Assembly (NCBI RefSeq): GCF_001021385.1
Contig: NZ_CP011773.1
Span: 806,001 to 870,000 of the forward strand
DNA from: Mycobacterium sp. EPa45
Lineage (GTDB): Bacteria > Actinomycetota > Actinomycetes > Mycobacteriales > Mycobacteriaceae
DNA length: 64,000 bases
Direction of reading: 5' to 3'
Below the pieces are notes generated by a model. The model was given only the letters and a program-made list of their open reading frames with translations, had not been told where the DNA came from and did not search any database. The position numbers and the translations under genes were made by a program. Of this stretch, positions 12,703 to 16,286 are shown piece after piece. Every line of letters begins with the position of its first letter. Positions within the stretch are counted from its first letter, which is position 1.

Positions 12703-13435
12703 ACCGGCTGGCGCTGGCCTGATCGCGGGGCCGGAGCACGATCTGGTCGAGGTTGACGTGCGACGGGCGTGATGCGACGAAGCCGATCACCTCGGCGACG
12801 TCGGCGGCCACCAGCGGCGTGATCCCCGAGTAGACGGCGTCGGCGCGCTGCTCGTCGCCGGCGAAGCGCACCAGGGCGAACTCCGTCTCCACCGCACCGG
12901 GCGCAATCTCGGTGAGCCGCACCGGTTTTCCGAGTAACTCACCGCGCAGCGTTCGATGCAGCGCACCCTGGGCATGCTTGGCCGAGGTATATCCGCCGCC
13001 GTTGTCATACACCTCCAGTGCGGCGATCGAGGTGACGGTGACGATCAGTCCGTCGCCGGATTCGACGAGCTTGGGCAGCAGCGCCCTGGTCACGCGCAAC
13101 GTCCCGAGCACGTTGGTCTCCCACATCCAGCGCCAGTGGTCGAGGTTGGCCTCGGCGATCGGTTCCAGTCCTTTGGCGCCGCCGGCGTTGTTGACCAGCA
13201 CATCGACCCGGGGCAAACCGGCCGCCAGGGCGGCGACGGCGTCGTCGTCTGTGACGTCGGCCACAATGGCGGTACCACTGATCTCGTCGGCCAACCGCTG
13301 GATGCGATCAGCCCGGCGCGCTACTGCGACAACGTGAAAGCCAAGGGCGGCAAGGGTTTTGGCGGTCGCCTCGCCGATACCGGAGCTGGCGCCGGTGACT
13401 ACCGCTACGCGGGAATGGGCGTCTGGAAACGTCAT
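12686..13435 (-). CDS. SDR family oxidoreductase (Rv0484c-like)
   Basis: A 249-residue classical short-chain dehydrogenase. Motifs: NAD(P)-binding [11 protein letters not shown] with [10 protein letters not shown] (an Arg pair suggesting NADP preference), VLVNNAGG, a catalytic Ser in VTSIAALE and YTSAKHA with catalytic Tyr and Lys. The frame extends far upstream, but ATG 13435 gives the standard SDR N-terminus and has a -10 box 7 nt before it. The 3' end overlaps the convergent lprQ gene by 17 bp. Substrate unknown. Confidence 0.9.
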
Positions 13436-13442
13436 CGGACCA

Positions 13443-13448
13443 ACTCTA
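13443..13448 (-). promoter_or_regulatory. -10 box for leaderless SDR gene
   Basis: On the minus strand TAGAGT is followed by 7 nt and the ATG at 13435. It sits back to back with the plus-strand promoter at 13459, so the two divergent promoters overlap. Confidence 0.5.
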
Positions 13449-13455
13449 GTAACTG

Positions 13456-13464
13456 TGCTAAATT
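13456..13464 (+). promoter_or_regulatory. Extended -10 promoter for the polycysteine uORF
   Basis: TGC followed by TAAATT (13459-13464) is an extended -10 element. Exactly 6 nt later is GTG 13471, so the transcript should begin at the first base of this start codon and be leaderless. Confidence 0.6.
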
Positions 13465-13470
13465 CCTCTC

Positions 13471-13545
13471 GTGATCCGAATCGGTCTGACCAGCTGTCTG
13501 GTCGCGCACACCGCGTGTTGTTGTCACGCGATTCGCTGCGCCTGA
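13471..13545 (+). CDS. Leaderless polycysteine uORF, putative cysteine-responsive attenuator
   Basis: A 24-codon ORF (GTG to TGA) beginning MIRIGLTSC and containing ACCCHAIRCA, so five Cys including three in a row (TGT TGT TGT). The Cys codons sit in the loop of a perfect 6-bp stem: CGCGTG 13512-13517 with CACGCG 13525-13530. It lies 85 nt upstream of the ROK gene that precedes mshA, whose pathway consumes cysteine. Leaderless polycysteine mini-ORFs acting as cysteine-responsive attenuators have been reported in mycobacteria. Assignment here is by sequence features; the function at this site is inference. Confidence 0.7.
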   Translation: MIRIGLTSCLVAHTACCCHAIRCA

Positions 13546-13630
13546 CAGACCCGGACACTCTTCTTCTCTCGTCCCGCTCACGTCGCCAGGTGTGGCACAA
13601 GCCCCCACCCCGACTCGAGAAGGACACCCA

Positions 13631-14938
13631 ATGCGTACCGTCGCACTTTCCTCCCACGATCCGCTCCGTACTTCCGCCCGTGACGCGGCCCGCGTCGGAG
13701 CCCGCCCGCATCCGCTGCGAACCCGGCACCACATCGTGGCTCCTTCGCTGCGGATCCCCGATGCCGCCGCCGCATCGGTCTTCGCGGCGGTGCGCCAGCG
13801 CGGCGCCATCGGCCGCGATGTGATCGCCCAGGTCACCAACCTGTCGATCGCCACGGTGAACCGCCAGGTCACCTCCCTGCTGGAGGCTGGAATCCTGCGT
13901 GAGCGCGCCGATCTGGCGGTTTCGGGCGCCATCGGCCGCCCGCGGGTGCCGGTCGAGGTCAATCACGAACCGTTCCTGACCCTCGGTATCCACATCGGTG
14001 CGCGCACCACGAACATCGTCGCCACCGACCTGCTCGGCCGCACCCTCGACGCGGTCGAGACGCCGACGCCGCGGGGCGGACAGGCTGCCGCGCTGGCCTC
14101 ACTGGCCGGCAGCGCCCGTCGCTACCTGAGCCGCTGGCATCGACGGCGCCCGCTGTGGATCGGCGTCGCGATCGGTGGTGTGGTGGACAGCGTCACCGGA
14201 CATGTCGACCACAGCAGGCTGAGCTGGACGCAGGCCCCGGTGGGACCCGTGCTCGCCGAAGCGCTGGGCCTGCCGGTGTCGGTGGCATCCCACGTGGATG
14301 CGATGGCCGGTGCCGAGGTTCTGCTCGGGCTGCGTCGCCCGCCTGCCCCGGCGTCGAGCAGCCTGTATGTCTACGCCCGTGAGACCGTCGGCTTCGCCCT
14401 GGTGATCGGTGGACGGGTGCACAGCCCGATCAGCGGCCCGGGCACGATCGCCGCGCTGCCGGTGTCTTCCGAATTGCTCGGCGGCAGTGGGCAACTGGAG
14501 TCGACGGTCAGTGACGAGGCGGTGCTGGCCGCCGCTCGCAAACGCGGCATCGTGCCGGTCTCCGGGCCCGCCGCCTCGATGGCCACGCTGCTGCGGGCCG
14601 CCCGCCAGGGCGATACGCCTGCCGGTGTCGGGGCGCAGGAACTGCTGGCCGAGCGAGCCCGTGTTCTCGGCGGCGCGGTGGCGCTGCTGCGCGACATGCT
14701 CAACCCCGACGACCTGGTCGTCGGCGGCCAGGCGTTCACCGAGTACCCCGAGGGCATGCAGTTGGTCGAGGCCGCGTTCGCCGAGCGGTCGGTGCTGCCG
14801 GCCCGCGATATCAGGGTGACGGCGTTCGGCAACCGAGTGCAGGAGGCCGGCGCCGGCATCGTCTCGCTGGGTGGTCTGTATGCCGACCCGATCGGCGCAC
14901 TGAGACGGGCCCAGAATCGCCGCGAAGCCGCGGTGTAA
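13631..14938 (+). CDS. ROK family transcriptional regulator (Rv0485-like)
   Basis: A 435-residue regulator with an N-terminal winged helix-turn-helix (about 45-100, [20 protein letters not shown] followed by [13 protein letters not shown]) and a C-terminal ROK sugar-kinase-like domain (about 115-430). The ROK part has [18 protein letters not shown] and [15 protein letters not shown] motifs, but the usual ROK zinc-site CxCGxxGC is not seen, so it is probably not a kinase. ATG 13631 has GAGAAGGA upstream and is preferred to GTG 13592. In M. tuberculosis Rv0485 regulates a PE/PPE pair. It precedes mshA by 10 bp and is likely co-transcribed. Confidence 0.88.
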
Positions 14939-14948
14939 AGATGGAGGC

Positions 14949-16286
14949 GTGCGGCACGCCCGGGAACTGACCGACAGTTCGACCGATGGGATGCCGCGTC
15001 GCGTCGCGGTGTTGTCCGTGCACACCTCCCCGTTGGCGCAGCCCGGGACCGGGGACGCCGGCGGGATGAACGTCTACGTGCTCCAGACCGCGCTGCAGAT
15101 GGCGCGGCGCGGGGTCGAGGTGGAGATCTTCACCCGGGCGACGTCGTCGTCGGATCAGCCGGTGGTTCGGGTGGCACCCGGGGTGCTGGTGCGCAACGTC
15201 GTGGCAGGTCCTTTCGAAGGGCTCGACAAGTACGACCTGCCGACCCAGTTGTGTGCGTTCACCGCCGGGGTATTGCGGGCCGAGGCCAACCACGAGCCCG
15301 GCTACTACGACATCGTGCATTCCCACTACTGGCTCTCCGGGCAGGTCGGCTGGCTGGCTCGCGACCGCTGGGCAGTGCCGCTGGTGCACACCGCCCACAC
15401 GCTGGCCGCGGTGAAGAACGCGGCGTTGGCCGACGGCGACGCACCGGAACCGCCGCTGCGCTCGGTGGGGGAGCAGCAGGTGGTCGACGAGGCCGACCGC
15501 CTGGTTGTCAACACAGAAGACGAAGCGCACCAACTCATTTCGCTGCACAACGCCGACCCGCGACGCATCGACGTGGTATACCCGGGCGTCGACCTGGAAA
15601 CGTTCACCCCAGGGAACCGGCACGCCGCACGCGCGGCACTCGGCCTCCCTGACGGCGAGCGCGTAGTCGCCTTCGTCGGGCGCATCCAGCCCCTGAAGGC
15701 ACCCGATGTGCTGTTGCGTGCGGCCGCGCGGCTGCCCGGTGTGCGGGTGCTGGTCGCCGGCGGCCCGTCCGGCAGTGGACTGGCCGCACCCGACGCGCTC
15801 GTGGGTCTCGTTGCCGAACTGGGTATGGCAGACCGGGTGACTTTTCTTCCCCCGCAGTCGCGCGAGCAACTGGTCAACGTCTACCGCGCCGCGGACCTGG
15901 TCGCCGTGCCCAGCTATTCGGAGTCGTTCGGCCTGGTCGCCGTGGAGGCGCAGGCTTGCGGGACTCCGGTGGTGGCCGCGGCGGTGGGTGGTCTGCCGGT
16001 GGCGGTGGCCGACGGCGTCAGCGGCGCCCTGGTCGCCGGCCACGAGCCCGGCCAGTGGGCCGATGCGATCGACGGTCTGCTGGCCCGCGACCCCGGGGAA
16101 CTCAGCGCCGCCGCCGAGGCGCACGCCCAGCGATTTTCCTGGGCACACACCGTCGACGGCCTGCTGGCCAGTTACTCCCGGGCGATCACCGACTACGCCA
16201 GCGTCCGGCGGCGGCACGCGGCCGGCGACGCGCTGGCCCGGCGCAACGGCCGGCGCTGGACGATGCGGCGGGGCGTGCGGCTATGA
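14949..16286 (+). CDS. mshA: D-inositol-3-phosphate glycosyltransferase MshA
   Basis: A GT4 enzyme (445 residues) that joins GlcNAc from UDP-GlcNAc to 1D-myo-inositol 3-phosphate, the first step of mycothiol synthesis. The motifs [15 protein letters not shown] (here [20 protein letters not shown]), [29 protein letters not shown] and [19 protein letters not shown] (the E-x7-E donor site) match the family closely. GTG 14949 is chosen as upstream start, though ATG 14991 begins directly before the conserved core and is possible. Stop overlaps the next start (ATGA). Confidence 0.96.

Follow-up and report, generated by a model that had tools for sequence, protein, structure and literature searches.

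A leaderless, polycysteine upstream open reading frame (uORF) precedes the gene for a ROK-family regulator in the window, the whole 64,000-nt stretch of the Mycobacterium sp. EPa45 genome analysed here, and it probably acts in cis as a cysteine-sensing leader of that gene and, in mycobacteria, of the adjoining mshA. The parts of the leader, the ROK gene and the glycosyltransferase gene behind it all lie on the plus strand. As the first-pass annotation had stated, and as the coordinates confirm, an extended -10 element (TGC-TAAATT, 13456-13464) stands 6 nt before a GTG at 13471 that opens a leaderless frame of 24 codons, MIRIGLTSCLVAHTACCCHAIRCA (13471-13545, TGA at 13543-13545), with three consecutive Cys codons and two more. 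Cys falls at codons 9, 16–18 and 23, and the putative sensor run, UGU-UGU-UGU (13516-13524), has its first Cys 9 codons ahead of the stop. A strict scan (TANNNT, 5–8 nt, RTG, frame of fewer than 60 codons with CCC) returned this single match in 64 kb on both strands and none in 20 first-order Markov simulations of 64 kb, and a looser scan, which asked for CC and three Cys in a leaderless frame, found the window element once in the 64 kb. Judged by sequence, the -10 box and its spacing suit an mRNA 5' end at the RTG. Consensus scans found no sigma-70-type -35/-10 pair at the leader promoter, and the sole intrinsic-terminator match lies inside the uORF (13503-13517), with the Cys run as its tail and 0.1 matches expected in shuffles. 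Rfam gave no match up to E 1 within 13300-13800.

The core of this finding is already known, because the ortholog before Rv0485/Msmeg_0932 is in print; the first-pass annotation, which did not recall whether a mycothiol locus was among the known leaders, is corrected on this point. The section on uORFs in Shell 2015 (PMC4633059) describes small leaderless ORFs that are conserved, rich in Cys and placed ahead of cysA2, Rv0485/Msmeg_0932 and nirA; for the ortholog in M. smegmatis it includes profiles from RNA-seq and ribosome profiling (Fig. 7B). The Rv0485/Msmeg_0932 uORF there shares gene, place, leaderless start and Cys richness with the window element, is conserved between M. tuberculosis and M. 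smegmatis, and is proposed to work by attenuation. The text of the paper presents the genes behind such uORFs as putative hypothetical or cysteine-metabolic and never uses the word mycothiol, and the section contains neither an RNA structure nor a motif-type relative. The actinobacterial cys-operon leader peptides of Seliverstov 2005 (PMC1262725) are likewise short frames with Cys runs near the stop, and mshA, ROK and nirA are absent as terms from the text of that paper. Smith 2022 (PMC9094748) predicts that six M. tuberculosis ORFs act as Cys attenuators, with Rv0485 and mshA absent from its main text, and a 2026 paper on rifampicin resistance (PMC13236596) shows cysteine uORFs, with Rv0485, mshA and mycothiol absent from its main text. 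Apart from the papers cited, a search of largely open-access literature turned up none that describes a cysteine leader tied to mycothiol.

Two further cysteine leaders occur in the same genome. The one before the rhodanese-pair (cysA2-like) operon matches Ms5788A (NF042933) at 54.9 bits, and the nirA leader, detected only once the -10 rule was dropped, scores 43.2 bits with Ms4527A (NF042936), just below the cut-off of 45 that applies to both. We also noted that these leaders of one genome (L258:364-456 before the rhodanese pair, L254:801-893 before nirA) read MSARLELMLTKRRAVDLCRVAGCCCCCCSC and MTAPQTLRSPALVVRRHVDFKRVCTCCCLA, both with RRxVDxxRV before the Cys run. The ROK leader resembles Ms4527A (nirA) and Ms5788A (cysA2) in its leaderless start, its Cys run near the C terminus and its sulfur-linked setting; the ROK leaders tried, the window uORF among them, had no match to NF042936, NF042933 or the cis_reg_atten model NF042934.

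To follow the uORF across the genus, as the first-pass annotation had proposed, we looked ahead of the Rv0485-mshA genes in 170 Mycobacterium loci (L001-L170, which include the window's own locus and species repeats) and found a leaderless, Cys-rich frame before ROK in 168 of them, corresponding to 141 distinct leaders. Among 80 named relatives, which overlap partly in species with the unnamed loci, 79 carried the frame, and the one miss, L051, begins 22 nt from a contig edge. L051 and L097 were dropped for their contig edges, and manual correction gave L004 and L010 another ROK start and L071 another uORF; here and below, identical leaders or uORFs enter a "unique" count a single time. The 168 uORFs start with GTG (158) or ATG (10), 6 nt (141) or 7 nt (27) behind a TANNNT box. 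Consecutive Cys codons were found near the uORF end, in a run of at least three in 156 of the 168, and the distance from the first Cys of the run to the stop is 9 codons in 119 and 10 codons in 32 (together 151 of 168). The search itself demanded a TANNNT box 4–8 or 4–9 nt ahead of the start along with two or more Cys, which in part predetermines the spacing and the Cys counts; the sharp spacing peak and the fixed place of the Cys run are no product of the search rule. Codon choice in the run is skewed, with TGT to TGC at 380 to 63 in 130 unique mycobacterial uORFs, against 71 to 85 for single Cys codons of the same uORFs and 1 to 22 in the ROK coding pieces examined.

In the window, the ROK-family gene (Rv0485-like; PF00480, E 2.7e-14) spans 13631-14938, its ATG at 13631 chosen by the Shine-Dalgarno, and an mshA-like glycosyltransferase gene (14949-16286; PF00534, PF13579), named as in the first-pass annotation, begins 10 nt behind it; the gene before the leader promoter encodes a short-chain dehydrogenase on the opposite strand. 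The proposed link to mycothiol held for the sampled mycobacteria, with mshA at most 300 nt behind ROK in 99 of 110 loci (691–1114 nt in 8, contig end in 3). It did not hold for the leader itself: in other genera mshA was found behind ROK in 1 of 11 contexts (stretches reaching 1–2.7 kb past ROK), and the 12 contexts beyond those 110 have two such cases, one of them an early Mycobacterium. In at least 6 of the 12 (L241, L243-L246 and L250), the first GC3-rich frame behind ROK, in unannotated sequence, is on the other strand. Because the leader stays with ROK and mshA is rarely behind ROK outside Mycobacterium, the target kept across genera is the ROK gene; the leader's conserved partner is ROK, not mshA.

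The Cys run sits in a hairpin, H0 (13512-13530; stem CGCGTG 13512-13517 with CACGCG 13525-13530), which is present in the predicted fold of the window leader. The first-pass annotation had placed the Cys codons in the loop of a perfect 6-bp stem; the stem is real and exceeds its controls, but the first TG of the run belongs to the stem, and the 7-nt loop takes 7 of the run's 9 nt. Among the 120 unique uORFs whose run has at least three Cys, 89 have a stem of at least 6 bp around it, versus 22% of flank-shuffled controls. Over the first 7 stem positions, 80.6% of cells are paired (0.806), compared with 72.2% (0.722) when 3' arms are swapped between species, a level of pairing reached by 0 of 2000 swaps and, on the 49 unique arm pairs only, by 2 of 2000; the swap test covered the 119 of 130 uORFs with an in-frame TTGTTGY loop, and relatedness remains in the control. 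Among species, stem position 6 shows T-A, C-G and G-C pairs.

The uORF end and the sequence behind it allow two mutually exclusive pairings. In H1, the uORF end, CTGCGCCTG (13536-13544), pairs with CAGGTGTGG (13587-13595), and GGAC (13553-13556) pairs with GTCC (13571-13574), giving a 5' arm at 13536-13556 and a middle arm at 13571-13595. In H2 (13571-13625), the same middle arm is used by the ROK Shine-Dalgarno, GAGAAGGAC (13617-13625), with predicted pair probabilities of 0.98–1.0 across the site except for two unpaired A. The conserved elements follow the uORF stop in the order CGGAC, GTCC(n)GCTGAGTCG, AGGTGTGG, CCACC, CGACT and AAGGAC, and a single middle segment offers a pairing partner to either the uORF end or the ROK Shine-Dalgarno in many mycobacteria. 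Because RNAalifold returned no pairs, and thus no common fold, on a gapped MAFFT alignment of 80 leaders, we tested the structure arm by arm. The outer H1 helix forms 8 or 9 of its 9 pairs in 110 of 135 leaders (4 of 139 without a GGTGTGG-like site were excluded), and its arms show no covariation across these 135, with 7.985 of 9 paired versus 7.988 in swaps; the fixed bases of the H1 arms may in part reflect codon bias. In 89 leaders (90 with L046 left out), mean energies were -21.2 for H1 and -23.8 for H2, and H1 was the stabler in 24. Because H2 beats H1 in the window (-24.1 versus -17.0 kcal/mol), H1 would need to win kinetically there.

For fold strength we kept 170 leaders, excluding those with a gap outside 40–175 nt or no GGA near the start. 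Where the gap is 69 nt or longer, as in 112 mycobacterial leaders, the spacer folds more stably than shuffles (mean z -2.2, 72 of 112 below -2), and the Shine-Dalgarno core is paired at 0.695 versus 0.610 in shuffles, singly significant in 22 of 112. The window leader has a fold energy z of -3.2, with its Shine-Dalgarno paired at 0.60 versus 0.71 in shuffles and so not above them. A ribosome at the Cys codons was expected to release the Shine-Dalgarno, and simulated ribosome positions under equilibrium folding gave almost no such release: mean accessibility over 90 unique leaders was 0.33 at the first Cys versus 0.30 at the stop, rising by more than 0.05 in 23 and falling by more than 0.05 in 7, and in the window the position of the ribosome left it unchanged. 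The first-pass annotation had held that stalling would remodel the downstream RNA; such remodelling is plausible in many mycobacteria, and equilibrium folding disfavours a strong effect.

Taken as a mechanism, these elements would work as follows. The mRNA would start at the GTG, and ribosomes would translate the 24-codon frame from the 5' end. With charged Cys-tRNA scarce, a ribosome would pause at the UGU run, and it would otherwise run on to the stop. At the stop it would cover the uORF end, leaving the middle segment to pair with the Shine-Dalgarno (H2, off); paused at Cys, it would leave the uORF end free to pair with the emerging middle segment (H1) and the Shine-Dalgarno would be freed (on). 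The readout in this species would likely be translational. Canestrari is said to have reported in 2020 a response of polycysteine leaders to cysteine, in which paused ribosomes prevent the folding that otherwise conceals the ribosome site further down. We infer the stalling at Cys, the direction of the switch and the co-transcriptional order from the arrangement of these parts; an H1/H2 switch would need co-transcriptional folding, and we put the two-hairpin detail a little short of an even chance.

The paused uORF ribosome might instead act on transcription, altering Rho access or early termination in the leader with no release of the Shine-Dalgarno, which we regard as rather unlikely. The treatment of mycobacterial cys leaders in Seliverstov 2005 (PMC1262725) points this way, finding no conserved terminator behind them and proposing Rho, and equilibrium folding does not favour the translational switch. 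Nor do all leaders have a spacer hairpin. On average none is significant in the 25 mycobacterial leaders with a gap below 69 nt (mean z 0.04; Shine-Dalgarno paired at 0.26 versus 0.37 in shuffles) or in 33 leaders of other genera or early mycobacteria (mean z -0.74), and the readout in the short-gap mycobacterial leaders must differ from a Shine-Dalgarno hairpin. Short-gap leaders (for example L080 and L147) are often longer uORFs of the type MHLSALSSTTTACLCAAGACCCRALCRS. Against control at transcription, a stable hairpin in the spacer extends to the Shine-Dalgarno in many long-gap leaders, and a consensus scan of the stretch from the uORF to ROK detected no intrinsic terminator of the kind that a classical trp-type attenuator has, although Rho requires no such terminator. 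Whichever readout applies, the regulatory role in cis proposed by the first-pass annotation for this conserved leaderless polycysteine uORF is supported as likely.

Outside Mycobacterium, the leaderless leader before ROK takes another form, mostly a peptide of 30–37 aa with the core VTYVTxALGxRLPxxRELCC. By a loose rule, 37 of 40 other-genus loci have a frame, of which 31 carry the motif, 5 have CC without it and one (L194) is probably due to chance; L204 is one of the three misses, and its genome (G310) nonetheless has the peptide before ROK. The motif loci of other genera lie within L171-L203, L211-L216 and L239-L250, with some overlap. A profile of the leader, A2, matched 101 of 151 genomes in a sample of the family, none of them among the 10 Mycobacterium within it, and in 97 genomes the match ends 83–349 nt before a ROK match on the same strand. 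Within Mycobacterium, the motif matched strongly (E < 1e-15) in 10 of 396 genomes, with 14 further weak matches (E 0.001–0.01), and in a sample of the class it occurred in 6 of 246 genomes, all belonging to the window's family. Ten ROK homologs of another family (36–46% identity) had no Cys-pair or RLPxxR frame in the roughly 580 nt before the match. The VTYVTxALGxRLPxxRELCC leader had no Pfam or NCBIfam match, and a literature text search for pieces of the motif found no paper. Cys-pair leaders lacking RLP also stand before ROK at L192, L196, L199, L201 and L210, with ends such as RMCCMHCC, RMCCMRCCL, RMCCRPS and SRMCCR.

Across the codons of ALG, RLP and the next R in the 31 motif leaders, differences are about 0 at position 2, 0–0.12 at position 1 and 0.49–0.70 at position 3, and because variation concentrates at the third position, these residues are conserved as peptide. 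VTYV is fixed as DNA too, as the palindrome GTCACNTAYGTGAC, which occurs once in each of 38 loci (some overlap), always inside a V-T-Y-V..RLP frame; the 687 kb of loci contain no other copy, and L001-L170 have none. We considered this palindrome in the VTYV codons (L171-L250) as a candidate operator.

Conservation of the core at the amino-acid level would suit a small protein acting in trans, its Cys serving metal or thiol chemistry, yet we judge this improbable: in Mycobacterium the N-terminal half is free to differ, whereas the leaderless start and the position of the Cys run are retained; in the motif leaders all three codon positions are variable just outside the core, both ahead of VTYV and behind CC; and none of the peptides tried matched Pfam or NCBIfam. 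Short frames are common in GC-rich DNA, but a chance frame beside a promoter has next to no likelihood and is already refuted by conservation, since the frame recurs at 168 of 170 genus loci, 97 genomes of the family have a matching leader peptide immediately ahead of ROK, the simulated windows were empty and, for the ortholog, ribosome profiling is in print in the uORF section of PMC4633059.

For the putative cysteine-sensing leader, a ROK tree suggests a history of its two forms. Of its 41 rows, 11 come from other genera, and every one of these has the motif form, as does the G050 lineage of early mycobacteria; because the tree places it in both, the motif form is most simply the older. The G050 lineage pairs, at modest support (81/85), with the polycysteine row L046, and because a motif-type lineage pairs there with a polycysteine one, two changes of form would be needed instead of one. 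In the early form, L168, the peptide terminates in CCRCVCRCA, and folding predicts an H1-like pairing between the uORF end and the GGGCGTGG that follows it. Two genomes carry a further copy of the motif leader (L237:558-670 and L238:563-695), each ahead of an operon of transporter genes (SBP_bac_5, BPD_transp_1) that points away from its neighbour, a TauD gene in one genome and a Sulfatase gene in the other; these copies fit a portable sulfur leader.

The conserved stretch of some 20 residues in the motif form stops exactly at the Cys codons, which are mostly UGU, and this invites comparison with leaders of the TnaC/ErmCL type. Those are nascent-chain arrest leaders; the motif is absent from most of the window's genus, and arrest in the motif form is putative. 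Help from the nascent chain in the motif form is possible rather than probable. With the same reserve, we offer tentatively that the polycysteine leader may be a decayed two-part sensor: by gripping the exit tunnel, the nascent core would convert a slight slowing at the Cys codons into a firm, regulated arrest for which two Cys would be enough, and most mycobacteria would have lost the grip and gained a longer Cys run in an RNA loop. Such a module would be portable and would mark ROK as a regulator of sulfur status.

The window feature bears out a leader already in print and adds to it. Within the reach of our searches, the new part is the history: across the family the leader combines a conserved peptide core with two Cys, and inside Mycobacterium it has probably turned into a bare Cys run. 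The leader points to the ROK protein of the Rv0485 type as a cysteine-controlled regulator, which offers a direct way of searching for its regulon. If the core is indeed an arrest peptide, this one locus would show nascent-chain arrest and codon-run sensing replacing each other.
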